Origin: Lachnospiraceae bacterium
GTDB taxonomy: Bacteria; Bacillota; Clostridia; Lachnospirales; Lachnospiraceae
Assembly (NCBI GenBank): GCA_015057325.1
Contig: SVEQ01000003.1
Span: 1 to 64,000, forward strand
DNA length: 64,000 nt
Direction of reading: 5' to 3'
Under the pieces are notes generated by a model, which saw only the letters and a list, made by a program, of their open reading frames with translations, had not been told where the DNA came from and did not search any database. Both the position numbers and the translations under genes were made by a program. The stretch's first letter is position 1, and the number at the start of each line of letters is the position of its first letter. This document shows positions 27,018-57,192 of this stretch, piece by piece.

Positions 27018-27030
27018 GTCTAATTACCTC

Positions 27031-28203: not shown

Positions 28204-28227
28204 TTATATATTTCCTCCTGCTAATAT

Positions 28228-28290: not shown

Positions 28291-28302
28291 GATAATTAAA
28301 AA

Positions 28303-29175
28303 TTAAAGCTCGTCAACCGGTGTCTTTGTACGATCTGCGTTATAAACGTAGAATCCCTTACCGCTCTTAACACCTAAGTTACCACCACGAACCATCTTAC
28401 GAAGAAGTGGACATGCACGATACTTAGAATCGCCTGTCTCCTTGTAAAGAACGTCCATGATAGCAAGACAAATATCAAGACCTACGAAATCACCAAGCTC
28501 AAGAGGTCCCATCGGATGATTAGCACCGAGCTTCATAGCTGCATCAATACCAGCGATGTTAGAAACACCTTCCATCTTGATAAATGCTGCTTCATTAATC
28601 ATAGGGATAAGAATACGGTTAACAACGAAACCAGCAGCCTCGTTAACCTGTACAGGAGTCTTACCAATCTCCTCTGAAATCTTCTTAATCTTCTCTACTG
28701 TCTCATCAGGAGTGTTAACACCTGCGATAACCTCGATAAGTTTCATACGGTCAGCAGGATTGAAGAAATGCATACCAACCATAGGACGAGTAAGTCCGTT
28801 ACCAATCTCTGTGATTGAAAGACTTGATGTGTTAGATGCGAAAATACATCCTTCCTTACAAATCTTGTCAAGTTCAGAAAATGTTGTCTTCTTAACTTCC
28901 ATATCCTCAAATGCAGCTTCAACGATCAAATCGCAATCTGCACAAAGATCTTCTTTAAGACCAGCAGTGATGCTTGAAAGAATACCATCAACCTGCTCCT
29001 GTGTCATTTTTCCTTTTTCAACAAGTCTTGCATAACCTTTTGCAATCTTGTCCTTTCCGCCATCAGCCCACTCCTGCTTAATATCACAGAGTGCAACCTC
29101 ATAACCGTCAACCATAGCGAATGCCTTAGCAATTCCCTGTCCCATGGTACCTGCGCCAATTACGCCTACCTTCAT
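28303..29175 (-). CDS. hbd: 3-Hydroxybutyryl-CoA dehydrogenase
   Basis: A 290-residue enzyme reducing acetoacetyl-CoA to 3-hydroxybutyryl-CoA with NAD(P)H. The Rossmann motif GAGTMGQGIAKAF is at residue 7. FASNTSSLSITEI and the catalytic histidine in MVGMHFFNPADRMKLIEVI (near residue 138) follow. The C-terminal dimerisation domain contains AGFVVNRILIPMINEA and LGANHPMGPLELGDFVGLD. Length is standard for the stand-alone clostridial enzyme. It lies 23 bases after crt in the thl-crt-hbd-bcd-etfBA order. Confidence 0.97.
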   Translation of the reverse strand: MKVGVIGAGTMGQGIAKAFAMVDGYEVALCDIKQEWADGGKDKIAKGYARLVEKGKMTQEQVDGILSSITAGLKEDLCADCDLIVEAAFEDMEVKKTTFSELDKICKEGCIFASNTSSLSITEIGNGLTRPMVGMHFFNPADRMKLIEVIAGVNTPDETVEKIKKISEEIGKTPVQVNEAAGFVVNRILIPMINEAAFIKMEGVSNIAGIDAAMKLGANHPMGPLELGDFVGLDICLAIMDVLYKETGDSKYRACPLLRKMVRGGNLGVKSGKGFYVYNADRTKTPVDEL

Positions 29176-29198
29176 GCTTGTATCCTCCTTAAAATTAA

Positions 29199-29990
29199 TT
29201 ACTTATTCTGGAAAGGCACAACTTTAAGTTTCTTCTCTTTGTCTTTCTCTAAGAAGTTACCCATACCTGCCTTCTGATCCTCTGTCTCGAAGCAGTCACC
29301 GAAAAGCTTCTCCTCGATAACGATAGCTTCGTCCATATCAACCTGTAAACCGTCATTGATTGCTTTCTTGCAGTTACGAACAGCGATAGGTGCATTAGCT
29401 GCAATACCTGCTGCCATCTTCTTAGCCTGCTCCATAAGCTCTGCTGCCGGATATACAGCATTAACAAGTCCGATACGATATGCTTCGTCAGCCTTGATAT
29501 TTCTAGCTGTGTAAATCATCTGCTTAGCCATTCCTGCGCCAACCAAACGTGCAAGTCTCTGTGTTCCACCAAATCCAGGTGTAATACCAAGACCAACCTC
29601 AGGCTGACCAAAAATTGCATTCTCAGAACAGATTCTGATATCACAACTCATTGAAATCTCACATCCTCCGCCAAGTGCAAAACCGTTAACGGCTGCAATA
29701 ACCGGAATAGGGAATGTTTCAAGCTTTCTAAATACATCATTACCCTTCTTACCGAAAGCCTCACCCTCTGCCTTAGTAAGTGTAGACATCTCTCCGATAT
29801 CAGCACCTGCAACAAAGGACTTCTCACCTGCACCTGTAAGAATAAGTGCTCTTGTTGTATCAAGATTGATTGAATCAAGGGTTTCATTTAACTCATCAAG
29901 CACCTGTGAATTAAGTGCATTGAGTGCCTGCGGACGATTGATAGTGATAACACCAACAAATCCTTCCTGCTCATATGTGATAAATTCCAT
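29199..29990 (-). CDS. crt: 3-Hydroxybutyryl-CoA dehydratase (crotonase)
   Basis: A 263-residue enoyl-CoA hydratase family enzyme converting 3-hydroxybutyryl-CoA to crotonyl-CoA. It has the oxyanion-hole segment AGADIGEM (near residue 62), NGFALGGGCEISMSCD (near 105) and GQPEVGLGITPGFGGTQRLARLVG (near 132), with the two catalytic glutamates in GGGCE and QPEVG. The C-terminal helical trimerisation region is complete. It follows thl after 140 bases that hold two CTTAG-type hairpins; AGGAG precedes the start. Confidence 0.96.
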   Translation of the reverse strand: MEFITYEQEGFVGVITINRPQALNALNSQVLDELNETLDSINLDTTRALILTGAGEKSFVAGADIGEMSTLTKAEGEAFGKKGNDVFRKLETFPIPVIAAVNGFALGGGCEISMSCDIRICSENAIFGQPEVGLGITPGFGGTQRLARLVGAGMAKQMIYTARNIKADEAYRIGLVNAVYPAAELMEQAKKMAAGIAANAPIAVRNCKKAINDGLQVDMDEAIVIEEKLFGDCFETEDQKAGMGNFLEKDKEKKLKVVPFQNK

Positions 29991-30041
29991 TGAATTAATC
30001 TCCTTCTATATAGTCATTATGTCAAAATTAGTCTCCAGCTT

Positions 30042-30123
30042 ACTAAGCTCACAAATGTTCGCTAAGTGCGCTTGTATGGCTACGACTAAGTTCAAACTTC
30101 GCAGTTGCTCGTTTTCACTAAGT
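30042..30123 (-). repeat. Pair of CTTAG-type hairpins between thl and crt
   Basis: On the minus strand the first hairpin (30123-30085) begins 7 bases after the thl stop: ACT, T.T, AGT, tandem G.A, AAAC, an inner GAGC-AACT-GCGA loop, GTTT, tandem G.A, ACT, T.T, AGT. A 17-base spacer follows, then a second hairpin (30067-30042): ACT, T.T, AGC, G.A, ACA, TTT, TGT, G.A, GCT, T.T, AGT. AGC/GCT here versus AGT/ACT elsewhere is a compensatory change. The same two-hairpin layout follows tsf at 36120-36216. Confidence 0.85.
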
Positions 30124-30130
30124 TCTCTGC

Positions 30131-31324
30131 TCAACGCTCAACGATGGTTGCACAACCCATACCGCCACCGATACAAAGTGTAGCAAGACCCTTCTTAGCG
30201 TCCATATCTTCCATCTCATGAAGAAGTGTAACAAGGATACGACAGCCTGAAGCTCCAACAGGATGTCCAAGTGCAATAGCACCTCCACGAGGATTAAGCT
30301 GCTTAGCAACATCAATTCCAAGATCCTTACCAACTGCTACTGACTGTGCAGCAAATGCCTCATTAGCCTCGATAACATCGAAGTCTTCGATCTTGTAATC
30401 AGCCTTAGCCATAGCCTTCTTTGTAGCTGCAACAGGTCCAACACCCATGATTGAAGGATCAACACCTGCAAGTGCACCTGCAACAAATGTAGCCATAGGC
30501 TTAACACCTAACTCCTTAGCCTTCTCCTCAGACATAACAACAACTGCAGCAGCACCGTCGTTAATTCCTGAAGCATTACCTGCTGTAACAACTCCGTCCG
30601 GATAAAGTGCACGAAGCTTAGCAAGTGACTCAGCAGTAACTCCGCTTCTTACGCCCTCATCTGTATCGAAGATAACTGTCTCTTTCTTCTTCTTGATCTC
30701 AACAGGAACGATCTCTCTCTTGAACTTGCCTTCAGCGATTGCCTTCTCAGCCTTGTTCTGTGAGTTAGCTGCGAACTCGTCAAGCTCCTCACGAGTAAGC
30801 TTCCACTGTTCAGCTACATTGTCAGCTGTCTTAATCATATGATAATCATTAAATGCATCCCAAAGAGCATCCTTAACCATTGTATCAACCAATGCTCCCT
30901 GACTCTGGCTAGGCCATGTCATTCTGTATCCGTAACGTCCGTTAGGAAGGGCAAATGGTGCCATTGACATGTTCTCCATACCACCTGCAACAACAATATC
31001 AGCATCTCCTGCCTTAATCATCTGTGCTGCCATGTTAACGCAGTTAAGACCTGAACCACAAACAACGTTAACTGTAACTGCAGGACACTCGATAGGAAGT
31101 CCGGCCTTAAGTGATGCCTGACGTGCAACGTTCTGTCCAAGACCTGCCTGGATTACACAACCCATGTAAACCTGATCAACCTGATCTGCAGGTACGCCTG
31201 CACGGTTAAGAGCCTCCTTAATTACTATTGCTCCAAGCTCTGCAGCAGGAGTTGTTGATAAAGAACCACCCATGGTTCCGATTGCTGTACGACAAGCGCC
31301 AGCGATTACAACTTTTTTTGACAT
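30131..31324 (-). CDS. thl: Acetyl-CoA acetyltransferase (thiolase)
   Basis: A 397-residue biosynthetic thiolase condensing two acetyl-CoA to acetoacetyl-CoA, the first step of the butyrate route. Acylated Cys89 lies in [11 protein letters not shown], the histidine in [12 protein letters not shown] and the second cysteine in LCIGGGMG. I chose the ATG at 31324 ([16 protein letters not shown]), which has CGGAGG ten bases upstream; a start 27 codons earlier lies in the leader. It is the first gene of the operon, behind a predicted promoter that overlaps the scr terminator. Two structured hairpins follow directly after the stop codon. Confidence 0.97.
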
Positions 31325-31395
31325 AATATAAAATCCTCCGTTTGAAATTTTGCGTTTGTAAGAGTCGTCCTTCTCAACCACGCAATCTGTCAACC

Positions 31396-31424
31396 ATAAT
31401 AACACAAACAGGGGATATTTGCAA
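31396..31424 (-). promoter_or_regulatory. Predicted promoter of the thl-crt-hbd-bcd-etfBA operon
   Basis: TTGCAA (31419-31424) and TATTAT (31396-31401) on the minus strand are 17 bases apart. The -35 lies inside the scr terminator hairpin, about 70 bases upstream of thl. Confidence 0.5.
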
Positions 31425-40290: not shown

Positions 40291-41532
40291 TCAAACACGG
40301 AATAACTCCGCCACCTTATCTTCTTTAAGTTCACTTCCGATAACACAAAGTTTACCTGTAACATCAGGCTGTCCGTCACGAACTTCAAACTCTTCAGGAG
40401 TCAAATCAAAGTATATCCAACCGCCCTCGCTGTTTGGAACCATTCCCTTCGCACGAAGAATAATTCCATATTCCTTACTATCTTCAGAATCAGCAAGTTT
40501 TTTGAGAATATCTTCAATCTCAGCCTTTGTATATTTGTTAGCAGTCTCTTTACCCCAACTTGTAAATACATCATCTGCATGATGATGGTGATGATGGTCA
40601 TGATCGTGACAACCGCAATCATGGTTGTGATGGTGTTCGTGCTCATCGTGATCATGATGCTCGTGATGATGGTCATGATCATCGTGGTCATGATGCTCGT
40701 GATGATGCTCATGCTCATCGTGGTCATGATGCTCGTGATGATGCTCATGCTCATCGTGGTCATGATGCTCGTGATGATGCTCATGCTCATCGTGGTCATG
40801 ATGTTCGTGATGATGCTCATGCTCATCGTGGTCGTGATGTTCGTGATGATGGTCATGATCACACTCATCACCATGCTCATGTACGTGTCCACATGTAGGA
40901 CAAACCTTTGCCTCCTCAAGGAGCTGCTCAACAAGGGACTTCTCGCCCTCCATAGCATCAACAATCTGCTTGCCATTAATATCATCCCAAGGTGTTGTAA
41001 TAACTGTCGCTTTGTCATTATGCTCCTTAAGCATATTAACAACTGCATTTAACTTATCATCATCGAGTTTTTGAGATCGACTAAGTATAATTGTTCCTGC
41101 ACTCTCTACCTGATTGTTAAAGAACTCTCCAAAGTTCTTCATATACATTTTGCACTTTGTAGCATCAACAACCGTTGAAGCAGAATTAATCTCAATTTCT
41201 GCTTCATGAAGGTCTGCAACCGCCTTCATAACATCAGAAAGCTTACCTACGCCCGAAGGCTCTATAATAATTCTGTCTGGTGTGTAATCATGAAGCACCT
41301 GCTCAAGCGCCTTACCAAAATCACCAACAAGCGAACAACAAATACAACCTGAGTTCATCTCATTAATCTGAACTCCCGCATCCTTGAGAAATCCACCGTC
41401 AATTCCTATCTCGCCAAACTCATTCTCAATAAGTACAAGTTTCTCACCCTCAAAGCCTTCAGCAATCAACTTCTTGATAAGTGTTGTCTTGCCGGCACCA
41501 AGAAATCCGGAAATAATATCAACTTTTGTCAT
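40291..41532 (-). CDS. CobW/ZNG1-type metallochaperone GTPase with a His-rich repeat
   Basis: A 413-residue G3E GTPase. Motifs are Walker A GFLGAGKTT (residue 9), the metal-binding GCICCSL near residue 62, and IIIEPSGVGK. The linker (about residues 214-315) is extraordinarily rich in His, Asp and Glu, including six tandem 12-residue units of the HHHEHHDHDEHE type, then HDCGCHDHDHHHHHH; CPTCGHVHEH precedes it. The C-terminal CobW_C domain (about 325-413) is complete. Such proteins deliver or store zinc, cobalt or nickel. The next gene is another CobW-type GTPase. The promoter is at 41599-41627. Metal identity is not decidable from sequence; the Zur-like box downstream favours zinc. Confidence 0.92.
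   Translation of the reverse strand: MTKVDIISGFLGAGKTTLIKKLIAEGFEGEKLVLIENEFGEIGIDGGFLKDAGVQINEMNSGCICCSLVGDFGKALEQVLHDYTPDRIIIEPSGVGKLSDVMKAVADLHEAEIEINSASTVVDATKCKMYMKNFGEFFNNQVESAGTIILSRSQKLDDDKLNAVVNMLKEHNDKATVITTPWDDINGKQIVDAMEGEKSLVEQLLEEAKVCPTCGHVHEHGDECDHDHHHEHHDHDEHEHHHEHHDHDEHEHHHEHHDHDEHEHHHEHHDHDEHEHHHEHHDHDDHDHHHEHHDHDEHEHHHNHDCGCHDHDHHHHHHADDVFTSWGKETANKYTKAEIEDILKKLADSEDSKEYGIILRAKGMVPNSEGGWIYFDLTPEEFEVRDGQPDVTGKLCVIGSELKEDKVAELFRV
40636..40851 (-). repeat. Six 36-bp tandem repeats encoding the His-rich linker
   Basis: The period is exactly 36 bases, six units, each coding 12 residues of His, Asp and Glu. Units 1-4 and 6 encode the same protein unit; unit 5 has two Glu to Asp changes. 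Near-identity at the DNA level suggests recent expansion and possible length variation by slippage. Confidence 0.92.
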
Positions 41533-42765: not shown

Positions 42766-44904
42766 TTACTGCGGATTACCCGCTTTTTCTTTTTGATTCT
42801 TGCGCATAAGTTCATTGGCATGACGAATAACGGTTGATAAATCCATCGTTCCAAATGTACAATATACAGCGCCGATAAATGCTTCCAGTTCTTTGTGATT
42901 CATCTGTTTTCTTACTCTGTCAACATCATTGTCAAAAATCGTCTCGTCGGACTCAAAGCCAAACGCAACAAGTTCTGAGCTACCGACATGATAAACATTA
43001 TCTTCCCCGAATATATCTCGCAATATATCTGCCATTTCAACAAGCTTTTTATCTCCGGATTCAAGACTTTGCAAATCATTAATTTCACTTTCATCATTTA
43101 TCTTACATACAAGATAACCGAAAGCGGACGACATATCAAGCCCCGATTCGATATATTCTTTGTAAGCGCGACGATTAAGTGCACCTGATAAAGGATCATT
43201 ATAGCTATAGAATTTAAGTCTTTTTTGTTCATCACGTCTTGTTATAACTTGTGCTAGGAAAAATGAATTAATACCAATAATTTCAGATGTATCCTCTAGC
43301 AAATCTTTGGGAACATCTATAAGCACAAACAATCCAACAATCTTATTATTGTCAAGTAGTGGACTTGCCACCATACTTTCAACATTATTTGTCTTTAATA
43401 TATTGTACAAGGTTGTATTAAACGACTTGTATTTTTCAATATCATCTACAATCAGCCTACCGTTATTAGCAGTAAATGTATCATATAACTCATCAACAAA
43501 ACCATTATACGGCAAGTAAAGCAGGTCTATTTTTTCATTAACACGTCCGCCATTTAACCAATGATTGGTTACTCTGAACTTTCCATTAGTATGTTCCTCA
43601 AATACAAGAATTGCCCTTACTTTTAACTGCTCACCCATATAATCCAGCATGGATTTAATACTATTCTCGGGCGAATCCGACGATATGGCATATTGCATTG
43701 TTTTGTTAATGAAAAGGTCTCTTTCAATAGTTTGCTGACTTCTTGTCCACCATTTAAGAAATCTGAATAACATTATTATAACAAGCAACAAAGTAACTAT
43801 TCGTGTAACTCGGCCATAACTATTACCTGAGAGTATTTCCATTCGTAATAACATAAAGTCTGCAAATACACTAGCCCAAAAAATCGTTACTCCAACAAAG
43901 AAATACTTCATATTAGCAGCTATTCCCTTGCCTTTACAATAAATTGTATTATCAATTGTTATGACATTAATAAAGACAAATATGGTTACTACAAAAACTA
44001 CCAATGCACGAGGATATGACTTTGACATATCGATATTAAACAAATATCTACGACTTATTAAAGTAGCCACAAGTATAACAGAAAGCCAAAATGCAATACG
44101 TTCATAAATAGCCTTTTTTTGTGCTGTTAATGAATTAAGAAATCTAACCAAAGGAAAACCGAAAAAGAATATAACTATTCTATCCAGAGCTCTCCATAAA
44201 TATATATGTCCCGTAAACAACTGCATAAACTTTGTATCTATAAAAAGCCAAAAACCGAGTATAAATGACGCATATCCAAGAGAAGCAATATCAAACAGTA
44301 AACGTGACTTATCAGCAATACAAAAATAAATAAGTATAAGCACTACTCCTAAAAACATAATAAGTGCAGACGCCGAAACCGAAAAAAGCATATCCACTAC
44401 TGTCATATGAATATAGTCGCGGGCCGGACTTATATAAGGATTAATTATTCTTGCTCCACAAAAATGATCACATACACCTTCATATATGATTTTTACTGTT
44501 TTTCCGCTTTCGCTCTCACACAATCCTACTTCATTATATGAACTTCCATAACTTACACCACTAAGATTCTCACGCGATTTAAAAGAGAACTTTTCCTCAT
44601 CGTCAACCCATACCGAAAAATTAACATTAAGCGCCTCAAAACACAAACAATCGTTATCGTTAATGTCTTCCGGCAATTTTTTTTCAAGAACAACTTTACC
44701 TAAATTTTCTTTATTGCTGATATCGTTAATGTTAATTGTTTCTGTTGAGTTGATAATCCAGCCGTCCGAAAAATCTCGAATATTCTCTCTATAGTCTTTG
44801 TTGAAAGTATCAGTTGAAACAATAATATATGCTATAGCAAACAATGACAAAAAAGCAAATGCTATAGAATATATTCTTTTAATCAAGGCTTCTCTGTTCT
44901 CCAT
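42766..44904 (-). CDS. Membrane sensor with GAF-like and degenerate GGDEF domains
   Basis: A 712-residue protein. After an N-terminal TM helix comes an extracytoplasmic region of about 140 residues, then about seven TM helices (roughly 175-390), a 7TMR-DISM-like layout. A GAF-like domain (about 405-565) and a C-terminal diguanylate-cyclase fold (about 575-700) follow. In the latter the GGDEF motif reads GSSEL (residues 641-645), so it should not make c-di-GMP; it may bind a nucleotide or act structurally. It lies 30 bases after the DegV-containing kinase gene and 17 bases before mnmA, within one apparent operon. Its ligand and output are unknown. Confidence 0.8.
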
Positions 44905-44934: not shown

Positions 44935-47900
44935 CTATCTGGCTATATTATCTATAACTTTTATTATTTCATCAAATGCCTGACGTTCTAAACATCCTTT
45001 AAGAATATCTAATCTATCCATATCAATTTCGGGTATCTCATATTCTTCTACTTCGGCAAGTGCAGATTCTATCATAGAAACATCCTGACTACTTGCACCT
45101 TCTCTTATCACCTCATATACACTTTCAATTATCTCATCGATAAAATCATCTTGTATAAAAGTATCTGATATTTCTTCAGGACTATCTTCTACTTCTTTGA
45201 TAACCGCTCCAAATATTTCATCAAGCGGTTTTTCAAGATCTCTATATGCCTTTATAAGACCGGCATGATGTTCATTAATATAATCAATGTTATGTTCTTT
45301 ACCTGCATTTTCAAGAGCTTGTGCATCATCAGCTATACCTGTTGCACCAATAAGTCTTGCCGAACTTTTCATTGCATGAACTTTGATTGTATAATTATCC
45401 CAATCTTCTGCATTATAATACCCTTCCAATTCCGAAGCACGCTCATCAATGGACTCGTGGAATATTTCAAGAACTGCTTTTAACGAGTCTTCCGAACCGC
45501 AACTGGCGATTGCACTCTCATAGTCAATTCCATCAATGTCTATAAACCACTCCGTTTTGTCCGTATACGATTCATTATTGTCCAAGGAATCCACGCTTAT
45601 GTTATCATCATTTTCAGCTTCGTACTCAACATCATTTGACATGCGTTCTATTTGTTCCTCTTCATAATCATCTTCACTCACAAGCATAGAACTTAGATTG
45701 TAAGAATATTCTCCTTTGTCAAAATACATAAGTCCGAAAGCACCGGAACCGCAATTAAGTGCGAGAACAGCTGAAGATTTCTGAAATACAATATTTTTGA
45801 ATTTGAATCTCTTTTTAATCCTCATCTCAATTTTTGCAAGATCTGAAACGGACTGATCTGAATATACTACAAAAATAACATCAAGATCAGGATTAGCTAC
45901 TCGAGGCAATGCATAATCAACAAATTTCATGTAGCATCTTTCACGCTCACCCAAACTAAGTCTTCCAATAGCATACTTACCATTTTTATACCTAATATAT
46001 GGCCATATGCTTAAAGTCCTCATGATGTCTTCAACACCCTTGCCAAATGCATCTATTCTATGAACAAAATATGAGCCGTCAGCAATAACCCCACAATGAA
46101 CACTTTCGCTTGCCTTTTGTAATTCCTCTATAATTCTTTCTACTGTTGATCCTCTTGCAGACATACGCTGTGCCAACAAAACAAGCATACCAAGGGCACT
46201 CGAATTAGTCTTTGAATCAAACACCTTAACATTCTCATATGACTTTGCAGCTTCAAACGCGTGCTCATAATCATGACTTACAGCACTTGAAACAGCCACA
46301 TATATAACATTGTGTGCTTTCTTTAATTCCTCGCCAAAAAACTTCTCATAAGCTTCTACTGAAGCGGGCTCTGAACTAAAAACAGCTCCTTCTTTCATGT
46401 ACCTTAATAATTCATCTGTTTCCGCCTCAACCCCATCATAATATGTATTGCCATTACCACGAATAATGAACGGTATTGTATCAATCTGGTACTGTTTAAG
46501 AACACTTTTAGGTAAATCGCACAAACTTCCTGTAGTAACTAATACAGGTAACTTTCTACTGTAGCCTCTTGCTGTATTCATTGAAAGCTTAGTTATATCC
46601 GTTCCTTTTGCAGTAACAATCTTTGTCTGAGGAAGATGTAACAGCAACTTATCCTCGAGTTGTTTTGCAGATACCGGCTTAACAAGATAATCGTCAAATC
46701 CGCTCCTTGCATACAGTTCTGTATTCTCACTTCCCGCATTGGCAGTAAGAACAATTACAGGTATTCTGTTATTAAGTCCTCCTACCTGTTTTCTTATACG
46801 CTGAAGACACTCTATACCATCCATTTCAGGCATTAAATGATCCATAAGAATCACATCATAGTGTTCTGTAAGAGTTTTGACAAGTGCCTGCTCGCCACTT
46901 TTTACCGTATCAACACTAATCTCTGTCCCGATAAGAAGCTTACGCTCAACTTCGAGATTCATTTCATTATCATCAACTATAAGTATTCTTGCCTCAGGCG
47001 CAGTAAACTCTGCCTCATAGCCGCCGGCTCTTTCACTCTTACTTAATTCAGTTATATTAATATTACCGACTGCATCAGAATTCGTAACCTTCTGTCTAAG
47101 AGTTACCGTAAATGTCGAGCCTTGTCCATACACACTGTTAACTGTTACTCTACCACCCATCAGATCAACAAGCTGCTTAACGATAGAAAGGCCAAGTCCT
47201 GTACCTTCAATTCTTGAGTTTTTCTCCTCATCAACTCTCTGAAATGCGTCAAAAAGATACGGAATTGCATCCTGCTTAATACCCATACCTGTATCAATAA
47301 CCGAAAACATAAGGACAACCTGATTATCAATAATATCTTCTTTCTCAACATGAAGGGTTACTGTTCCATGATTGGTGTATTTAACTGCATTATTAAGTAA
47401 ATTAACAAGAATTTGTTTGATACGAACCTCGTCACCAAAAAGTTCTACCGGAACAGAAGGATCAATCTCAATTTTAAGCTCTATCCCCTTCTGCTCAACC
47501 CTCATCCACATCATATTAACAATCTCAGACACAAGAGAAGCAATATTATAATTAACCGGAACTATATCCATCTTACCTGCCTCAATTTTGGAAAAATCCA
47601 AAATATCATTAATGAGTGCAAGAAGCATTCTTCCGGCACCCTGAATATTACCGGCATCTCTTATAATCTCGTCAGAAGCATCAGGTTGTCTTAAAATAAT
47701 CTCATTTAATCCAAGAATCGAATTAATAGGAGTTCTAAGTTCGTGACTCATACTTGAAAAGAAACGATTTTGAGACATATTGAGTTCTTCAACCTTCTTC
47801 GTCTCTTCTCTTGCTCTTTTGTTCTCCTCTAAGAAAAGAAGATTTTGAAACCATGTCATAACAAAGCATACATATCCGACCTCGATAACAGCAAGAGCCG

Positions 47901-48381
47901 AATCTAAATACATAGTTGCACCCGAATGATGATAAACAAGTTCAGGATGATAATAACCAACAGAGAACAAGATAATAATTATTACCGTCAATGATGCTAA
48001 CATTCCTGCACGCCACCACCCCGAAAGCACAAGTCCTACATAAAGGTAACTAAATACAAGCCATGGAATACCACCGCCTTCAATACCTCCGCCAAATATA
48101 AATGTTATTGGCATAATAACAAAAATAAGCCCCAAAGAAATTACTCTTGTTGCAGTATCTATCTTTTGAAATTTTACTCCACAAAAAGTTGTAACAGGTG
48201 TAAATACCATAGTGGCAATAAGTACCATTATTTCGATAATATTATCGCTGTAAATAATATCTCCAATCAAGGCAAACATAGCAATACCCATTGCAGTTAT
48301 TGTAAGTACAATGAACACTCGCTCTTTTAGGCTTCTTTTCGAATCTGAAATCAGAGATCTAATCTTAGCATCTATTTTCAT
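44935..48381 (-). CDS. Hybrid histidine kinase with receiver, DegV-type and Hpt domains
   Basis: A 1148-residue protein. Five to six TM helices (about 20-180) are followed by a HisKA domain (phospho-His213 in MSHELRTPINS) and an HATPase domain (about 315-430; NLLNNAVKYT and GTGLGLSIVKQL). A receiver (about 462-580, Asp514 in LMDHLMPEMDG) follows. Residues about 609-890 match the DegV fatty-acid-binding fold: TTGSLCDLPKSVL, TYYDGVEAETDELL, the FSSEPASVEAYEKFF serine motif, VAVSSAVSHDYEHAF and VKVFDSKTNSSALGM. An acidic linker leads to an Hpt domain (about 965-1060, His1002 in KVHAMKSSARLIGA) and a helical tail. The start codon overlaps the preceding kinase gene by four bases, so translation is coupled. 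Lipid sensing is inference. Confidence 0.88.
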   Translation of the reverse strand: MKIDAKIRSLISDSKRSLKERVFIVLTITAMGIAMFALIGDIIYSDNIIEIMVLIATMVFTPVTTFCGVKFQKIDTATRVISLGLIFVIMPITFIFGGGIEGGGIPWLVFSYLYVGLVLSGWWRAGMLASLTVIIIILFSVGYYHPELVYHHSGATMYLDSALAVIEVGYVCFVMTWFQNLLFLEENKRAREETKKVEELNMSQNRFFSSMSHELRTPINSILGLNEIILRQPDASDEIIRDAGNIQGAGRMLLALINDILDFSKIEAGKMDIVPVNYNIASLVSEIVNMMWMRVEQKGIELKIEIDPSVPVELFGDEVRIKQILVNLLNNAVKYTNHGTVTLHVEKEDIIDNQVVLMFSVIDTGMGIKQDAIPYLFDAFQRVDEEKNSRIEGTGLGLSIVKQLVDLMGGRVTVNSVYGQGSTFTVTLRQKVTNSDAVGNINITELSKSERAGGYEAEFTAPEARILIVDDNEMNLEVERKLLIGTEISVDTVKSGEQALVKTLTEHYDVILMDHLMPEMDGIECLQRIRKQVGGLNNRIPVIVLTANAGSENTELYARSGFDDYLVKPVSAKQLEDKLLLHLPQTKIVTAKGTDITKLSMNTARGYSRKLPVLVTTGSLCDLPKSVLKQYQIDTIPFIIRGNGNTYYDGVEAETDELLRYMKEGAVFSSEPASVEAYEKFFGEELKKAHNVIYVAVSSAVSHDYEHAFEAAKSYENVKVFDSKTNSSALGMLVLLAQRMSARGSTVERIIEELQKASESVHCGVIADGSYFVHRIDAFGKGVEDIMRTLSIWPYIRYKNGKYAIGRLSLGERERCYMKFVDYALPRVANPDLDVIFVVYSDQSVSDLAKIEMRIKKRFKFKNIVFQKSSAVLALNCGSGAFGLMYFDKGEYSYNLSSMLVSEDDYEEEQIERMSNDVEYEAENDDNISVDSLDNNESYTDKTEWFIDIDGIDYESAIASCGSEDSLKAVLEIFHESIDERASELEGYYNAEDWDNYTIKVHAMKSSARLIGATGIADDAQALENAGKEHNIDYINEHHAGLIKAYRDLEKPLDEIFGAVIKEVEDSPEEISDTFIQDDFIDEIIESVYEVIREGASSQDVSMIESALAEVEEYEIPEIDMDRLDILKGCLERQAFDEIIKVIDNIAR

Positions 48382-50438
48382 GATCTGTTACCTCCTTTTG
48401 TAATACTTGGAAGTACCTTATTCATCGTACGTTCAAAATCATTTATATTAATAGGCTTACTTATAAAACCATCAAAACCTTCTTTCATAAACATCTGTCT
48501 TGCGCCACTTATTGCATTAGCAGTAAGCGCAATAATACAAATATTTTTCATCTGTGAAGATGCCATATCCTTAAGTCTCTTCATTGCCTCAACTCCGTCC
48601 ATTTCCGGCATCATGTGATCCATGAATATTACATCATAGTAGTTCTCAGAGAACTTCTCCAGCGATTCCTTTCCGCTTGCCGCAGTATCAACAATCATAT
48701 TGTATTCCTTAAAAATTCCTGAGGCTACAACGAGGTTCATAGGTTCATCATCAACAACAAGCACTTTAAGACCGTCAAGTATTGGCTTTGATGAGTCGTT
48801 ATTAACAGGCATTTGAGTCAGACTCATATCACCATTAAGAATCTTAACAACCGGATATGCATATATAGGCTTCGGCATAGCAATTACGTGACTTCTTGAG
48901 TGCACCAAAAAATCATCATGTGCCGATACCGCAACAGAAATATCTTGCCGAGATACTTCATCAAAAAAATCCTGTGCAGACAAATATTCATCCTCACCTG
49001 TAAAAATATGGGTAATATTACCGCGCTCCAATAATTTTTTAAGTTCAGTAATACTTGGAGCAAAATACAAATTAACTCTGCATCCCGATGCAATATTGGT
49101 TGCCATATTCTTATAAAACTCTCTAATTTCCGGAAGATTATATTTGCCGGGAACAATATGAAATACCGCATTAATAAAACGTTTAGACTCAACTGCTAGA
49201 CATGGTGAAGGTTCTATAACCTCCTGCGCAATACTTACATGTACAGTTGTTCCTCTTCCTCTCTCGCTATCGATTGAAACAAAACCGTTCATTTTTCTAA
49301 CAAATCCATACACAATAGGAAGTCCAAGTCCTATACCGCCCGTACTTCTGTTTCTTCTTCTGTCAATCTGATATATACCTTCCGATAGCTTATCAATATC
49401 CTTTTTTGTCATTCCAATTCCCGTATCTGTTACTTCGATAACAAGGTTAAGCCCAAAATCATGCCTGATACACGATACTTTAAGGCAGATTCCCCCTCTT
49501 CTTGTAAATTTTACCGCATTGCTTAGGAGATGCTTAATAATCTTGCTGATTTTGTTATAATCACCTTTAAGTATTGTCGGAACGTTAGGGTCTAAATCCA
49601 CAATAAGTTCAAGCCCATTATTGTGCTCTTTTATATTATATTCAGCAATAATATCATTAAGGACAGACAAAATCATATACTTGTCCTCCTCAAGTATTAC
49701 ATTTCCTCGCTGAATCTCACTATAATCTTGAATATCTTCTATCTGACTTGAAAGACGTAGTCCTGCATCTCTTATTGATGAAACGTCTTCTCTTGTCTCT
49801 TTATTAAGAATAATAGTTGATAAACCGTTAATCACATTAACAGGTGTTCTGAGCTCGTGAGAAATATTAACCAGAAAATCTTCCATTTCAAGCTTATCGT
49901 ATTCTTTCTCTTTATTTCTACGCTTTAATTCGTCACTGTCCTTATGCCCACTTTTGACAACTTCGCACAAACCCCTATATATGCAAAACATTGCAATACA
50001 ATGCAAAATGATCCTTGAAGTGTTAAGCGAATCAAACATAAAATCCTTTGATTGGAAAGCAAGACAAATCTGCAAAAGTATTAAGCAGAAAAACTCAGCA
50101 AGAATTAAGGTAAGTAATTCCTTACGCTTAAGAAGTGTTATCGTAACCATTAAAAGGGTTGAGATTACGATAATATCAAAGAAACTTGATGCATGAACCC
50201 CATGAAAAAAGGCTACAAGCATTGAAAAAATAATATAATAATTCTCTCTAAAAATAATACTGCCTCGTTGCGACATATGTATAATCCATGACGCAACAAG
50301 ACCAATTACAATAAGAGGTGGAACCCAAAATTCCCACCCCTGAGATACGCTTTCTATAATTGCCCCCAAACACGCAACCGTAACTATCGAAAGGACAAAA
50401 TTGTGTACTCTTGCATTCTTAGTTGTGTAATCTTCCAA
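48378..50438 (-). CDS. Hybrid histidine kinase with a pseudo-receiver and a receiver
   Basis: A 686-residue protein. About five TM helices (residues 15-160) have little extracytoplasmic sequence. HisKA has His194 in ISHELRTPVNV. The HATPase domain (about 245-400) has HLLSNAVKFTRRG, DTGIGM and GGIGLGLPIVYG. A region at about 430-540 has the size and pattern of a receiver but lacks the acidic pocket. The C-terminal receiver (about 557-675) has VVDDEP and Asp607 in FMDHMMPEMDG. There is no Hpt domain; the next gene, overlapping by ATGA, supplies one, so a His-Asp-His relay across the two proteins is plausible. The response regulator gene ends 25 bases upstream. Confidence 0.9.
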   Translation of the reverse strand: MEDYTTKNARVHNFVLSIVTVACLGAIIESVSQGWEFWVPPLIVIGLVASWIIHMSQRGSIIFRENYYIIFSMLVAFFHGVHASSFFDIIVISTLLMVTITLLKRKELLTLILAEFFCLILLQICLAFQSKDFMFDSLNTSRIILHCIAMFCIYRGLCEVVKSGHKDSDELKRRNKEKEYDKLEMEDFLVNISHELRTPVNVINGLSTIILNKETREDVSSIRDAGLRLSSQIEDIQDYSEIQRGNVILEEDKYMILSVLNDIIAEYNIKEHNNGLELIVDLDPNVPTILKGDYNKISKIIKHLLSNAVKFTRRGGICLKVSCIRHDFGLNLVIEVTDTGIGMTKKDIDKLSEGIYQIDRRRNRSTGGIGLGLPIVYGFVRKMNGFVSIDSERGRGTTVHVSIAQEVIEPSPCLAVESKRFINAVFHIVPGKYNLPEIREFYKNMATNIASGCRVNLYFAPSITELKKLLERGNITHIFTGEDEYLSAQDFFDEVSRQDISVAVSAHDDFLVHSRSHVIAMPKPIYAYPVVKILNGDMSLTQMPVNNDSSKPILDGLKVLVVDDEPMNLVVASGIFKEYNMIVDTAASGKESLEKFSENYYDVIFMDHMMPEMDGVEAMKRLKDMASSQMKNICIIALTANAISGARQMFMKEGFDGFISKPININDFERTMNKVLPSITKGGNRS

Positions 50439-50463: not shown

Positions 50464-51201
50464 TCAAAACTGTTCCTTAATTTTGTTAAGCAATTTATCC
50501 CTTGATGTATTTTTCAAAAAATACCCATCTCCATTAAGTTCGTTGAGTTCGCTTACTGCTTTCTCAGAACTAACTCCTGTTAAAAATACAATAGGAATTT
50601 CTGCAAGTTCCGGTTTCTCCTTAATCATACGAAATACCTGCGGTCCGTTAAACCCGGGCATTTCATAATCAAGCAAAATAAGATCTACATTGTTCTTACT
50701 AAGAAATGAGACAACTTCCGAACTCTCGTTAACCATTGCAACCTTGTAGAAATCTTTAATCCAAGTCTTGACAATTCTGGCATACGAAGGATCATCATCA
50801 ACAATAAGAACATTCTTCGTATCGTCCTTATACTTCTCATGCTTAATTGCTGCCATAAGTGTATGCAGGTCAAGCGGTCTGTCAACCCATGGAAACTCTG
50901 AAAGAGAAGGCATCTTATCAATAAAATCCTTGTGATATTTCTTTTCCCCAATCAAAACAATATCACTCGTATTTTTAACAAGAATATCCGAAAGCCTTAA
51001 AATCTCATCAAAAACAGGACGGCTGTCCATCACATCAACGGGAAGATACAAAAGATAAGTACGCCCATCCACACTTATCTGCGTTTGCAAATCATCCCCG
51101 GCTACTGTACTTACATCATACCCCAAAGACGTAAGTTTCTTTTCTACAACCTTAAGGACAATACTGTATTGATTAGAAACAATAACAATACTATTCTCCA
51201 T
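50464..51201 (-). CDS. Response regulator: pseudo-receiver plus receiver, no output domain
   Basis: A 245-residue protein. The first half (about 1-125) resembles a receiver but lacks the acidic triad and phospho-acceptor. The second half (about 129-245) is a true receiver: VLIVDDDPSYARIV, Asp178 in LILLDYEMPGFNG, the threonine in VFLTG and a C-terminal lysine in YFLKN. No DNA-binding or enzymatic domain follows, so it probably acts by protein contact or as a phosphate shuttle. It is the first signalling gene after nifS (60-base gap containing two TTGACA hexamers but no well-spaced -10). Confidence 0.88.
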   Translation of the reverse strand: MENSIVIVSNQYSIVLKVVEKKLTSLGYDVSTVAGDDLQTQISVDGRTYLLYLPVDVMDSRPVFDEILRLSDILVKNTSDIVLIGEKKYHKDFIDKMPSLSEFPWVDRPLDLHTLMAAIKHEKYKDDTKNVLIVDDDPSYARIVKTWIKDFYKVAMVNESSEVVSFLSKNNVDLILLDYEMPGFNGPQVFRMIKEKPELAEIPIVFLTGVSSEKAVSELNELNGDGYFLKNTSRDKLLNKIKEQF

Positions 51202-52530: not shown

Positions 52531-54063
52531 ATGTATGAAATACTATCAAAAAGTATGAAGAATCCAATCTTAAAAGGAACGCTGATTCTAACAATCACCG
52601 GTCTTTTAACAAGATTTTTCGGCTTCTATAATAGAATATTCTTAAGTAACTTAATTGGTGCGAAAGAACTCGGCATATACCAACTTGTTTTCCCTGTTTA
52701 TATGATAATTTTCTCTTTTACAACTTTGGGAAACGAACTTGCACTTACAAGAATCACCTCCGAATATGTCGGAAGAAATGAAAATAAAAGTGCACAAACC
52801 TTTTTTAAAATCTGTCTTTTTTATAACATTGTTTTGGGAATGTGTTCAGCTACAGTTTTATACTTTTTTGCTGATGAGATATCGCTTAAAATTCTAAATA
52901 CCGATTCGTGCGGCAATTGTCTTAAAGTTATTTGTTTGGGTATTCCTTTTATGGCTGCAAAAGGTGCTATTCATGGGTATTTTTTAGGACTTGAACGATC
53001 AGACGTACATGGAATTTCAGATTTCATAGAACAAATCGCAAAAATTGGCGGTGTGTATTTACTTGCTACATTTATTGCAGTTAAAAACAGTCATCACGCT
53101 TCTTTTGCAATAATCGGAATTGTTATCGGAGAAATCATTTCTTTTATATACTCTGCAATAATGTTACTCATAAATAATAAATGCAAACAAAACATTTACG
53201 GACAATCAATAAAAACAACTACTGCCTTCTCTATCTTTCTAAAAGAATCCATGCCGCTTACAGCAAATAGATTTGCAATTACACTATTACAAGGTATCGA
53301 GGCTGTACTTATTCCTTCAATGCTTCTTGCCTATTATAATGATTCGTCAATAAGCCTGTCTGTATACGGTATTTTTACCGGAATGGCTTTCCCTTTCATT
53401 ATGTTTCCTGCAACAATTACAAACTCATTATCAGTAATGCTTATGCCTGCAGTATCAAGTGCAAGTTCAGGACTAAAAAATGATTACCTGTCAAAACTTT
53501 GTGAAAGAAGTATTCGCTTTTGCCTTTTAATCGGTCTCTTTTTTGGGGTAACATTTTATATATTTGGAAACAGTATCGGAACGCTGATTTTCAACAACAA
53601 AGAAGCCGGTATATTTCTATACCGACTCTCTTTCTTATGTCCTCTTATTTACCTTGCAACCACTCAGGCAAGCGCCTTAAATGGGCTTGGGCTTGCCACC
53701 CATAATCTTATACTTACCATTCTTTCAACTGCCATACGCCTATCCTTCATTTTAACAACTATACCCAAAATCGGTATGAAAGGATATGTCGTAGGACTTT
53801 TTGTAAGTTATCTTTTTCTTACATATGCATCTCTTAACAAACTCAAGAAAAATGTAATATTTGAACTTAAAATGTTAAGAGATATTATTGTCCCGTTTGC
53901 ATTCTTCTTAATAACCGGAGTAGTCACTTACATATTCTACGATATATTGACCGCACATCTAAATAATATGTTACGTCTTCCAATCCTTCTTGCATCTCTT
54001 TTGTTATATGGTACTGTGTGCTTTGTATGCTTTGGAATACGGCTTGTTAAGCATCCTTGTTAA
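52531..54063 (+). CDS. SpoVB/MurJ-like lipid-linked oligosaccharide flippase
   Basis: A 510-residue polytopic membrane protein with about 14 TM helices and the N-terminal motif LILTITGLLTRFFGFYNRIFLSNLIGAKELGIYQ split across helices 1 and 2, typical of the SpoVB branch of the MOP superfamily. Members move lipid-linked precursors across the membrane; SpoVB is needed for spore cortex in Bacillus. AGAAGG lies eight bases before the ATG. Its 3' end overlaps the convergent sensor gene by 17 bases, so antisense effects are possible. Capsule or peptidoglycan precursor transport is an alternative to a sporulation role. Confidence 0.88.
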   Translation: MYEILSKSMKNPILKGTLILTITGLLTRFFGFYNRIFLSNLIGAKELGIYQLVFPVYMIIFSFTTLGNELALTRITSEYVGRNENKSAQTFFKICLFYNIVLGMCSATVLYFFADEISLKILNTDSCGNCLKVICLGIPFMAAKGAIHGYFLGLERSDVHGISDFIEQIAKIGGVYLLATFIAVKNSHHASFAIIGIVIGEIISFIYSAIMLLINNKCKQNIYGQSIKTTTAFSIFLKESMPLTANRFAITLLQGIEAVLIPSMLLAYYNDSSISLSVYGIFTGMAFPFIMFPATITNSLSVMLMPAVSSASSGLKNDYLSKLCERSIRFCLLIGLFFGVTFYIFGNSIGTLIFNNKEAGIFLYRLSFLCPLIYLATTQASALNGLGLATHNLILTILSTAIRLSFILTTIPKIGMKGYVVGLFVSYLFLTYASLNKLKKNVIFELKMLRDIIVPFAFFLITGVVTYIFYDILTAHLNNMLRLPILLASLLLYGTVCFVCFGIRLVKHPC

Positions 54064-55216
54064 CCTTAAACTTACCAACCTGACTTCTATGCTCAATTGC
54101 AATCTCATTCTGATAATCTGATGATATAGCAATCTGCTCCATATAAGTTGACATATTAAGAAGTTCCTGCTGCATTTCTTCTGAGTAAATACTGCTCTTT
54201 TCAACTCCGTCAAACAAAGCCTTCAACAATAAAGTTACATCAGAAGGCAAATCCTTATCACGCAATACCTCTTTGATTCCCTTGATAAAATCCGCCTGTT
54301 CCTTGCTTGATTTCATAATTTCAAGGCTCATTTTCTCAATGCGATCCTTAGACTTTCTGATAGCCTCTGAAACCTCTTTTCCTGTATCACTGATTGTCTC
54401 AGACTCTTCAACAATCTTCTCTACAAGGTCTCTTATCATAAACTGAGATTCATTAAGAGCTTTATTCGTAATTCCAAACTCATCAGGGCTCTTATCATCC
54501 ATATCCTCTGATACATTATACTCGGATATACGCTTTGCCCATCTTTGAATGACATTAAGTTTTGAAATGAAACTGTTACTAACCTGTAGAGCAACAACAA
54601 TTGACAATGCAAAAATAACAATTAGTGTAATCGTCAGAAAAAGAATGATTTTGCTGTATATCCTATAGTTTTCCATATTTTTCTTGTCAGCATTCGCAGA
54701 GGCTGCACCTGCTGCTTCGTCAAGAAGATTATACATATCATGCTCAGGCATATGAATATCTACGTCATAATATTTCATCGCCTCATCGTATTTCCCATCA
54801 AGCGCATACGCCATGTAAGTATCAATACGATTATTGATATCCTCCATACTGACTTTGAACTGTTCATATACTTTTTTCTCATTATCATCAGAATTGAGTG
54901 CCTCGTATTCTGCCATAAGTTTCTCGTTATCCTTGCGGATATCTGCAATCATCTGTGCATATTCTTCTCTCGTAATGCCACCTATTTCTCGTATCATACC
55001 GACGGCACAATGATCTATCTGACGCAGATTGATATTAATTGTGTTAAGATAATCTACCGAAACAAGATTGTTCTTGTATATGGTATTACCGTTATTATAT
55101 ACCTTTCTAACATAATATAAGCTTCCTACAGAAACACTTGCAAACAAAAAAACTATAAGAAAATAACTGAAAAGAAGTCTTATTTTAATACTTTTATGCC
55201 ATCTTATCTTTCCCAT
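54047..55216 (-). CDS. Chemoreceptor-like sensor (4HB_MCP type) without a signalling domain
   Basis: A 389-residue protein with an N-terminal TM helix (about 12-35), a four-helix-bundle sensor (about 40-190), a second TM helix (about 192-215) and a HAMP-like segment (about 216-270). Only about 120 residues of helical, coiled-coil-like sequence remain. The conserved hairpin tip of methyl-accepting proteins is not seen, so it probably does not contact CheA. I took the ATG at 55216, seven bases after GGAGG; a GTG lies two codons earlier. It starts 11 bases after the EAL protein gene, suggesting it senses a signal for, or is regulated with, that phosphodiesterase. Confidence 0.82.
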   Translation of the reverse strand: MGKIRWHKSIKIRLLFSYFLIVFLFASVSVGSLYYVRKVYNNGNTIYKNNLVSVDYLNTININLRQIDHCAVGMIREIGGITREEYAQMIADIRKDNEKLMAEYEALNSDDNEKKVYEQFKVSMEDINNRIDTYMAYALDGKYDEAMKYYDVDIHMPEHDMYNLLDEAAGAASANADKKNMENYRIYSKIILFLTITLIVIFALSIVVALQVSNSFISKLNVIQRWAKRISEYNVSEDMDDKSPDEFGITNKALNESQFMIRDLVEKIVEESETISDTGKEVSEAIRKSKDRIEKMSLEIMKSSKEQADFIKGIKEVLRDKDLPSDVTLLLKALFDGVEKSSIYSEEMQQELLNMSTYMEQIAISSDYQNEIAIEHRSQVGKFKVNKDA

Positions 55217-55227
55217 GTACACCCCTC

Positions 55228-57192
55228 CTATGACTTTTTAGTATATTTGTCAGGATTAAGCTTTCTATCAAGATATTCTTCTTCTAAGCAGGTGAGAAGC
55301 TGATCTCTTGGTACAGGCCTCGAGAAATAAAAGCCCTGCAAATAATCAACTCCCATAGCTGTAAGAACTCCCGCCATTTCCATATCTTCAACACCTTCAG
55401 CAACAACATCAAGATGTATAGCTTTAAACATCGCAACCGTATGCTCAAGAATTGTCCTTGAAGTAACGTTCTTCATTGCTGCCCATACAATATACTTATC
55501 GAGCTTAACAATACTAAACGGCAAATCAACAATATAGTTGATATTCGAAAATCCCGAACCATAATCATCAAGTGAAAATGTTATATCGGAAAGCGACATT
55601 CTAGCCATGTTTCTAATAAGCTTTTCTTCCGAATCCGCTGCCGCACTCTCTGTTATCTCAAGATTAATCATAGTCGGCGAAACATTATGCTTTTCAAGTA
55701 TTCTTCTAATATCTCTGCATATATGATCCTGCATACATTGAACTACTGAAAGATTAACTTCAACAAACTCTATTCCTTTTTCTTTTAAGTTATGTTCTGA
55801 TATAAAAGTACAAACTTCATCAAGTACAATAAGTCCAATTTGAAGGATTGTTCCATTAACCTCTGCTATTCTTATAAACTCTTCAGGCGAGACATAACCA
55901 TAACCGTACACATTAAGTCTCGCAAGCGCCTCCATAGAGTGGAACTTTCCGGTATGAGTGTCCAATATCGGTTGATAGTGAACTTCAAAATGACCGGATT
56001 CAACTGCCTTAACCAACGCTCTCTCGATAGCTGATGAGCGCTTCAAATCCTCCGTAACATCCTCATCTACCTCAAGGAATCTGTCTCTACCCTTTTTCTT
56101 GACATTTACAATCGCATGTTCAAGTGTCTGAATAAGCGTTGTCTGATGAATATGTATAGTATGAAGAAGACAAATACATGCTGATAATTCAACTATTTCT
56201 TCCTCTATATGATATCTCTTCTTGATAATTCTTCGTATTCTGTCATGCTCCTTTGCTCCTTCTGTCTTTTCAGGAAGAACAACAAGGAATGTATCTCCAC
56301 CGTAACGGAACACTTCACTCTCATTGTATTCGTCAATCAAATTATCAACGAACATCCTCATCAATTCATTACCGCCATCAACTCCAAACCTCTCATTGAC
56401 AAGTTTGAAATTATCAAGAGCAATAACAAATATCTGTTCCGGAATATTCCTCTGTATTGCATTGTTAACATGCTGTATAAATGCTTCCCTGTTAAGAGCA
56501 CGCGTTATTGTATCCGAATAAATAACCTGACTTTGGTCTGTAACATACAAAAGCACCACCGACAACGCAGTTCCTACTCCCGATAGCATATATGTCGGTA
56601 AGAAATATTGAATTAAAACAGGTAACAGGGCACATGTAATAACAACAGCGATAATAATCATCTGTCTTATTCGTATTACATCTCTGTTGAAAAACATATA
56701 GACAATAGTACACAACAGATAAAACAACACATTTGCATATAAAAGCCAATGATATGTGCCGTGATGATAACCTGTATCATCGATATAAAATATATAATTT
56801 GTTAAAGGATTAAGCAAAACCGTAACAACGCCAATAAGACACGGCGTCCATGCTATCAAAAACAGCATGCTACCGCTAATTTCAATCTGCCTAACCTTCA
56901 TATAAACATATACAAGGAAAATAGTCGGAATTATAAATTGAATCGCCAGAAAAACGGCATTAAGCGCATAATTAAACGCATAAGGAACAGTCTTGTAATT
57001 AGCAATTGTATAACAAGTAATTACATCAAGACATGTATTAAAAAATGTAATTAAAATGTACACACGAAACATTTTGTTCTGATAATTGACAACTTCTTTT
57101 TTGCCAAAAATAAGCACAATTATAAACACCATGAATATAATTGTGCATATTTCAAAATCCACATTAAAAACCATAAAAAAAACCATCCCCAT
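55228..57192 (-). CDS. Membrane EAL phosphodiesterase with degenerate GGDEF
   Basis: A 654-residue protein. About seven TM helices (residues 8-210) precede a GGDEF domain whose motif reads GGDTF (298-302), so cyclase activity is unlikely. The EAL domain (about 395-640) is intact: SMEALARL (Glu421), VEVNLS, LEITESA, LDDYGSGFSN, VKLDKYI, AEGVED and LQGFYFSRP. It should hydrolyse c-di-GMP to pGpG, perhaps activated by GTP binding at the GGDEF remnant. The start is uncertain: three close methionines follow a terminator tail, and the one at 57174 has the best upstream G-run. It is co-transcribed with the four-helix sensor gene after an 11-base gap. Confidence 0.88.
   Translation of the reverse strand: MGMVFFMVFNVDFEICTIIFMVFIIVLIFGKKEVVNYQNKMFRVYILITFFNTCLDVITCYTIANYKTVPYAFNYALNAVFLAIQFIIPTIFLVYVYMKVRQIEISGSMLFLIAWTPCLIGVVTVLLNPLTNYIFYIDDTGYHHGTYHWLLYANVLFYLLCTIVYMFFNRDVIRIRQMIIIAVVITCALLPVLIQYFLPTYMLSGVGTALSVVLLYVTDQSQVIYSDTITRALNREAFIQHVNNAIQRNIPEQIFVIALDNFKLVNERFGVDGGNELMRMFVDNLIDEYNESEVFRYGGDTFLVVLPEKTEGAKEHDRIRRIIKKRYHIEEEIVELSACICLLHTIHIHQTTLIQTLEHAIVNVKKKGRDRFLEVDEDVTEDLKRSSAIERALVKAVESGHFEVHYQPILDTHTGKFHSMEALARLNVYGYGYVSPEEFIRIAEVNGTILQIGLIVLDEVCTFISEHNLKEKGIEFVEVNLSVVQCMQDHICRDIRRILEKHNVSPTMINLEITESAAADSEEKLIRNMARMSLSDITFSLDDYGSGFSNINYIVDLPFSIVKLDKYIVWAAMKNVTSRTILEHTVAMFKAIHLDVVAEGVEDMEMAGVLTAMGVDYLQGFYFSRPVPRDQLLTCLEEEYLDRKLNPDKYTKKS

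Follow-up and report, generated by a model that had tools for sequence, protein, structure and literature searches.

DegV domains with a predicted FakB-like fold in paired hybrid histidine kinases of Lachnospiraceae, with an Hpt-type tail once per pair

Here, we analyse a hybrid histidine kinase (HK) that contains a DegV domain and is encoded in a stretch of 64,000 nucleotides from a Lachnospiraceae bacterium (assembly GCA_015057325.1, contig SVEQ01000003.1, positions 1 to 64,000), referred to below as the window. Its open reading frame (ORF) occupies exactly 44935-48381 on the minus strand, and its start overlaps the stop of a second hybrid kinase gene, 48378-50438, directly upstream on the same strand, by the four bases ATGA (48378-48381), a feature absent from an earlier note made on this DNA from the sequence. 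Comparison of 143 related proteins, nearly all of them from Lachnospiraceae, indicates that the two kinases recur as a pair in which an Hpt-type tail is present once, on one partner or the other. We would give even chances to the reading that a FakB-like carrier has here been turned into a receptor within a two-gene phosphorelay with a shared Hpt.

The approximately 280 residues between the receiver (REC) and the Hpt domain had been read in the earlier note as DegV, and profile searches as well as the predicted fold bear this out. The domain scores 122.5 bits against a cut-off of 27 (Pfam PF02645, E 2.6e-35), far beyond chance, and the NCBIfam DegV model TIGR00762 also exceeds its cut-off (136.4 versus 99.7). 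An AlphaFold2 model of residues 606-900, based on a 71-sequence alignment, reached a mean predicted local distance difference test score (pLDDT) of 91.5 and a predicted template modelling score (pTM) of 0.90. When it was compared with the PDB by Foldseek, the first 45 among the 50 matches listed were DegV/FakB chains, the best being 4x9x (E 1.4e-23, TM 0.81/0.88), Staphylococcus aureus MW1315, which we take to be FakB2. The C-terminal DegV-like domain of FakA (6w6b) has a related fold but is a much weaker match (E 4.1e-7), on which ground it was rejected as the origin of the domain. The model, matching DegV/FakB structures best, thus confirms a genuine DegV/FakB fold inside a phosphorelay kinase. 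Its least confident stretch (domain residues 161-180) roughly corresponds to the mobile lid of FakB1, given as Asp164-Lys186 in the available part of PMC8892158, the source used in excerpt throughout for FakB1.

The distribution of the REC-DegV stretch centres on one family: it was matched in 43 of 299 genomes of the same family, the window's own included (E 1e-60 or better), in 11 of 295 genomes of the order (E 1e-45; ten from the same family, own genome included, and one from another) and in 3 of 398 genomes of the phylum, all of the same family. The DegV query matched at least 532 stretches of the named collection, free DegVs possibly included. The best 80 of these, each with a kinase-type frame (some incomplete), carry deposited labels of Lachnospiraceae, Butyrivibrio or Pseudobutyrivibrio (73), Oscillospiraceae (four), Eubacterium (two) and Clostridia (one); the best named matches are from Lachnospiraceae, many of them from ruminants according to their titles. 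Together with 72 proteins from the genome searches, including the window's, these 80 made a set of 152, reduced to 143 at 95% identity. The window's own genome encodes ten DegV domains, five in short frames (free DegVs) and five in frames of 895-1150 amino acids (aa), along with one FakA-like protein.

Two sizes of DegV kinase can be told apart, a long form of at least 1080 aa with Hpt (84 proteins) and a short form of 860-1000 aa without it (51), with eight proteins outside both. The order HK-REC-DegV is found in 141 of the 143, the other two being incomplete frames, although this regularity is partly built in because the set was gathered by REC-DegV similarity; the gap between REC and DegV is 25-34 residues. 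As judged from the alignment of the 143 proteins, the catalytic residues of the window kinase all appear intact: the position of the phospho-accepting His213 is a histidine in all 139 relatives with a residue there (four gaps), that of the receiver Asp514 an aspartate in all 142 (one gap), and the N-box Asn and the G-box Gly/Asp of HATPase_c are invariant wherever relatives have a residue. The Hpt domain scores 34.5 bits (Pfam cut-off 24.6), and its histidine is present in 84 of 84 long-form tails when these are realigned alone and in 87 of 88 in the whole-set alignment. Hybrid kinases of the BarA, TorS and EvgS type also carry an Hpt and share the HisKA-HATPase-REC-Hpt series with its catalytic residues; indeed, the TorS and BarA models of NCBIfam match the kinase part of the window protein, below their cut-offs. 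In contrast to them, here a DegV lies between REC and Hpt, the genes form an overlapping pair, and the Hpt is on one protein only.

The partner, which in the window has five hydrophobic segments (hydropathy scan) besides the domains listed in the table, belongs to one family that stands at position -1 with more than 400 bits at 124 of the 143 loci. Of the other 19 loci, according to our sorting, 12 are ended by a contig end and seven have the partner split, shortened or at -2. The overlap between the two genes is exactly four bases in 74 of the 124 cases, and some overlap exists in 93. The receiver aspartate is present in 117 of 119 aligned partners (two gaps), and the HisKA histidine count is built in because these 119 were picked by the HisKA motif. 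Conversely, full-length homologues of the partner mostly adjoin a kinase-type DegV, as assessed by eye across the 299 same-family genomes with up to three candidates scored per genome. Six partner loci were doubtful: DegV is next door in L234, L235, L236 and L237, L239 is ended by a contig end, and L238, with no DegV within its 15 kb, is a true exception.

On the evidence of the alignments, an Hpt-type tail occurs once per pair. Among the 116 pairs whose size class is clear, the partner is tailless next to every long DegV kinase (71 of 71), ending within 35 residues of the receiver lysine, and runs on for 138-382 residues beyond that lysine next to every short one (45 of 45); three pairs were excluded, namely L088 and L054, whose cut or odd-sized DegV kinases have long-tailed partners, and L198, in which the -1 gene is a 472 aa fragment. 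Since the tail may stand on either partner, yet once per pair, it has changed sides between them. A profile built from long-form tails recognizes 44 of 45 tails on short-form partners, whereas short DegV kinases and long-form partners give no match. The reciprocal profile of the short-form tail gave 14 weak matches among these controls (best 25.8 bits), which we ascribe to the receiver end that the profile includes. Among the short-form partners, 41 of 45 tails have retained the Hpt histidine, those without it being L073, L095 and the second copies of L041 and L044. At L041, in the window's own genome (G000:C22:36000-55000), two DegV kinase genes lie less than 10 kb apart, the second of which has diverged and is paired with the partner whose tail has no Hpt histidine. 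In the tree, most long forms make up one clade inside the short forms, and L065, also long, stands apart in an unresolved fork, so that a single move of the Hpt is likely but not certain. RcsC-RcsD is likewise an adjacent pair of kinase-like proteins sharing an Hpt that sits on a single member; there, however, the kinase domain of RcsD is degenerate, whereas here both kinase cores appear intact and the Hpt may be on either partner.

Twenty further loci, found through a search with the partner and a profile search for kinase-type DegV, revealed other arrangements. In L237, L246 and L247, DegV is a gene of its own directly after a partner of the HK-REC-Hpt type, followed in L247 by a REC-GGDEF gene; L245 has the order HK-REC, DegV-Hpt, REC-GGDEF. 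Hence the DegV described in the earlier note as embedded in a kinase is indeed so placed in 141 of 143 proteins, but it also exists as a separate gene beside the same kinase. In L234, DegV lies N-terminal to membrane segments, HK and REC, the usual position of a sensor; this frame runs to the contig end, making a further Hpt possible, and the locus also has a separate 123-aa gene with an Hpt score of 22.6 bits, just below the cut-off of 24.6, and a REC-REC-HD protein. DegV forms the end of a partner-type kinase (weak kinase match, no receiver found) in L248 and L249, with an Hpt lying upstream in another kinase in L248. In L235, HK-REC and DegV are in different frames, which may reflect an error in the draft or a genuine fission.

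Trees of the DegV domain indicate that the kinase-type DegVs form one clan of common descent. In a first tree of 133 rows (36 free DegVs and FakB1, all 51 short forms and 45 of 85 long forms), the kinase DegVs are on one side of a branch with 99% support in the Shimodaira-Hasegawa-like approximate likelihood ratio test (SH-aLRT). A second tree, rooted at midpoint, had 88 rows: 33 of the 36 free DegVs (three long-branch rows dropped) with four close free ones, 28 of 51 short forms with three added, 12 of 85 long forms, and eight variants. Here, free and kinase-type DegVs separate with a support of 100/99, and the three separate-gene DegVs branch first, the remainder being held together at 91/90. 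The likely order of events would thus lead from a free carrier through a separate gene beside a kinase to fusion and, later, the move of the Hpt.

How much of the FakB site has been retained was assessed in 36 free DegVs, a set biased toward the best Pfam scores, 85 long and 51 short kinase forms; these numbers include a 1025 aa protein among the long forms and leave out one row, whose DegV is short, and six proteins of odd size. Positions follow the aligned FakB1, the numbering of which agrees with PMC8892158 at T62, S95, S171, R173, R205 and H270. The counterparts in the window protein are Ser670 (Thr62), Ser702 (Ser95), Cys763 (Ala158), Ile776 (Ser171), Ala778 (Arg173), Leu810 (Arg205), Asn876 (His270) and Cys877 (Leu271); an Arg stands three residues before Ala778, and the local alignment at position 173 could therefore be off. 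The excerpt of PMC8892158, through which the mutational FakB results (Broussard 2016) are also taken, reports that Thr62, Ser95, Ser171 and His270 hold the fatty-acid carboxylate, that Arg173 is a lid latch required for phosphorylation, that Arg205 binds FakA and the membrane, and that positions 158 and 271 line the tunnel.

The motifs FSSEPAS and VAVSSAVS, quoted in the earlier note, do contain the two serines aligned to Thr62 and Ser95. A Ser/Thr at both positions is present in all 36 free DegVs, in 84 of 85 long forms and in 20 of 51 short forms. The likeness to FakB/DegV proteins (PF02645), which extends over the fold of the whole domain and, in long forms, to this pair, ends at the other positions and in the setting within or beside a histidine kinase. 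Arg173 is found in 36/36 free DegVs, 14/85 long and 24/51 short forms, Arg205 in 35/36, 1/85 and 1/51, and His270 in 32/36 (the other four having Tyr), 0/85 and 1/51, its place being taken by Asn in 77/85 long and 46/51 short forms but in no free DegV. Cys271 occurs in 84/85 long and 35/51 short forms and no free DegV, and Cys at both 158 and 271 in 81/85 long forms only (0/51 short, 0/36 free), with position 158 varying among free DegVs too (His in 20/36). Position 121 is Ala in 25/36 free DegVs and Leu, Ile or Val in 74/85 long and 51/51 short forms, with Asn in the window. Moreover, the four fetched free DegVs closest to the kinase type (L250-L253) all keep Arg173, Arg205 and His270, and the three separate-gene DegVs (L237, L246, L247) have all lost Arg205 and have Asn270.

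With Arg205 gone, the hand-over to FakA appears to be lost in kinase-type DegVs. Head-group binding looks to be kept in the long clade and is doubtful in the short one. The retention of lipid-pocket residues across homologues, on which the earlier note had staked its reading, therefore holds for the Ser/Thr pair of the long forms and fails for His270, for most of Arg173 and for the pair in 31 of the 51 short forms; given these losses, lipid binding should not be assumed for the family as a whole. Two other roles were set aside at this point: DegV as a substrate of FakA was rejected on the loss of Arg205, and DegV as a phosphate acceptor was thought unlikely, His270 being Asn, with conserved Asp residues present elsewhere in the domain.

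In the working of the system that we propose, two intact hybrid kinases encoded by an overlapping gene pair would share a single Hpt, and phosphate from both should meet there, as there is one Hpt for two intact kinases with receivers. Most likely, phosphate would pass from the His of either kinase to a receiver Asp, from there to the single Hpt His and finally to free response regulators whose genes lie close by, among them GGDEF or HD domain proteins of a cyclic-di-GMP type. As for its origin, the DegV domain would descend from a free FakB-like fatty-acid carrier that first stood beside an HK-REC-Hpt kinase and was later fused into the second kinase. In the long clade, to which the window protein belongs, retention of the carboxylate-holding Ser/Thr pair makes a cytoplasmic ligand most likely, be it an acyl chain or a different hydrophobic acid, and the occupied domain would alter kinase or phosphotransfer activity. 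Most simply, DegV would be a ligand-dependent regulator of the relay, because it is a binding protein by descent, is also found as a separate gene and once stands in the sensor position; we infer that the ligand may be an acyl chain. Several observations weigh against this proposal. In the set gathered by REC-DegV similarity, the domain stands behind the receiver in 141 of 143 proteins, which is not the usual sensor place, and the N-terminal case (L234) is a single draft genome. From the published carboxylate network and lid, His270 is gone and Arg173 mostly gone, no more than 20 of 51 short forms retain the Ser/Thr pair, and the tunnel is not that of FakB1, as positions 158, 271 and 121 have changed. 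The Hpt histidine is missing from four of 45 short-form partner tails, no Hpt was recognized within the 15 kb of L249, and a GGDEF gene accompanies the pair at no more than 36 of 140 loci.

That 31 of 51 short forms have lost the Ser/Thr pair yet keep the domain, that DegV is tolerated in several positions, including a separate gene, and that its spacing from REC is constant at 25-34 residues would all suit a docking or scaffold module holding the second kinase, the partner or the Hpt together, with no ligand or none that matters. We regard such a module as unlikely, albeit a serious contender, for 84 of 85 long forms keep the pair, and the conserved Asn270 beside Cys271 is not obviously needed by a scaffold. 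The same cysteine, together with that at 158, raises the prospect that the receptor serves something other than fatty acids, as a thiol, redox or electrophile sensor, or binds another hydrophobic metabolite: the Cys pair marks 81 of 85 long forms and no short or free DegV, both positions line the FakB1 tunnel (PMC8892158, excerpt), and His270 has been replaced by Asn. Short forms do without the pair, however, so that it would not supply a general mechanism for the family, and we rate this alternative as improbable.

Its place after REC, like that of an output domain, and the FakA-like protein in the genome would allow DegV to be the output, with receiver phosphorylation controlling lipid carriage, for instance delivery to FakA or withholding from it. 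Yet Arg205, which binds FakA, is left in one of 85 long and one of 51 short forms, separate response regulators are encoded nearby and DegV is N-terminal in L234, making this role very improbable. A chance or assembly-made fusion with no significance, for which the draft state of many genomes is the only argument, is refuted by recurrence in 143 proteins with equal spacing and the same partner wherever upstream DNA suffices, and its probability is negligible. Returning to the ligand-dependent regulator, a wider version is possible but tentative: a FakB-derived clan would have left the fatty-acid kinase to become an exchangeable input module of a two-kinase, one-Hpt relay, its stages (free carrier, separate gene, fusion, Hpt side change) all extant in Lachnospiraceae, and rumen butyrivibrios would read intracellular acyl chains into cyclic-di-GMP.

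Hybrid kinases and DegV are both of known kinds, and their combination in a two-kinase, one-Hpt relay is absent from the literature searched; likewise, no description of a DegV domain in a histidine kinase was found in the titles and abstract beginnings covered, most subscription journals lying outside this coverage. The SaeRS system, built on a different histidine kinase, is reportedly inhibited by fatty acids (PMC5539427, excerpt). Unsaturated fatty acids are reported to be toxic to Butyrivibrio fibrisolvens (PMC2836310, excerpt), which gives a physiological reason to seek such a sensor. If our proposal is correct, an intracellular lipid receptor for histidine kinases has been built from a carrier of known chemistry, so that assays already published for FakB could test both its ligand and its mechanism. 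The rule of one Hpt per pair, carried by either partner, would document in nature, with unusual clarity, that two kinases act as a single machine, and the different arrangements that coexist suggest a route from metabolic carrier to signalling domain.

Table 1. Coordinates in the window of the kinase pair, its domains and the adjacent regulator
Feature	Coordinates	Strand	Details	Source
DegV hybrid histidine kinase	44935..48381	-	1148 aa; membrane helices-HisKA-HATPase-REC-DegV-Hpt	ORF, Pfam, NCBIfam
Five hydrophobic membrane segments	47857..48330	-	residues 18-175	hydropathy scan
HisKA	47575..47772	-	residues 204-269; phospho-accepting His213 (codon 47743-47745)	Pfam
HATPase_c	47092..47436	-	residues 316-430	Pfam
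Receiver (Response_reg)	46648..46986	-	residues 466-578; Asp514 (codon 46840-46842)	Pfam
DegV domain	45718..46542	-	residues 614-888	Pfam, AlphaFold2 model, Foldseek, alignment to FakB1
Hpt	45283..45474	-	residues 970-1033; His1002 (codon 45376-45378)	Pfam
Partner hybrid kinase	48378..50438	-	686 aa; HisKA 49704-49886, HATPase 49230-49565, REC 48432-48764, no Hpt	
Response regulator	50464..51201	-	245 aa; REC in C-terminal half, no other Pfam domain	Pfam

Kinases, response regulators and GGDEF proteins recur as neighbours of the pair. At 101 of 140 loci, the pair has a gene with a receiver but no kinase match no more than three genes away; for GGDEF proteins, one of them REC-GGDEF-REC, the figure is 36 of 140. 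The regulator at 50464-51201, the single-linkage cluster of which is present at 44 of 143 loci, is probably a downstream partner of the kinase pair. On the other side, the minus-strand gene at 42766-44904 encodes a 712 aa protein with a weak GGDEF domain (28.2 bits, Pfam cut-off 23.8) that lacks the GGDEF motif and hence may be inactive; it belongs to a cluster of eight neighbours in the locus set, and its membership in the kinase-pair system is possible but uncertain. At long-form loci (e.g. L207, L208), a cluster of the sodium:alanine symporter type is near the pair in 36 cases and one of the DUF6976 type in 18, and some short-form loci (e.g. L106) have a chemoreceptor-type gene (cluster of 10) and a gene that by eye looks like CheW (cluster of 8).

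The earlier note had also raised, as speculation, a link to butyrate formation. Butyrate-type genes do stand in a row at 25142-31405 on the minus strand: the top NCBIfam hits, which for the most part fall short of the curated cut-offs, are to electron-transfer flavoprotein subunits, acyl-CoA dehydrogenase, 3-hydroxybutyryl-CoA dehydrogenase, enoyl-CoA hydratase and thiolase. Nothing observed, however, ties this cluster to the kinase pair, no co-occurrence search having been made. Elsewhere in the window, the minus strand encodes a chemoreceptor-type 4HB sensor (54047-55222) for which Pfam gives a weak HAMP match but no methyl-accepting signalling domain; its neighbour is a GGDEF-EAL protein (55228-57192). 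The minus strand also has a 1912-aa ORF (15333-21071) with no NCBIfam match at 1e-20 and, at 40291-41532, a putative metal-chaperone-like GTPase (judged by eye), in which HEHHDHDEHEHH units make up a long His/Asp/Glu repeat.

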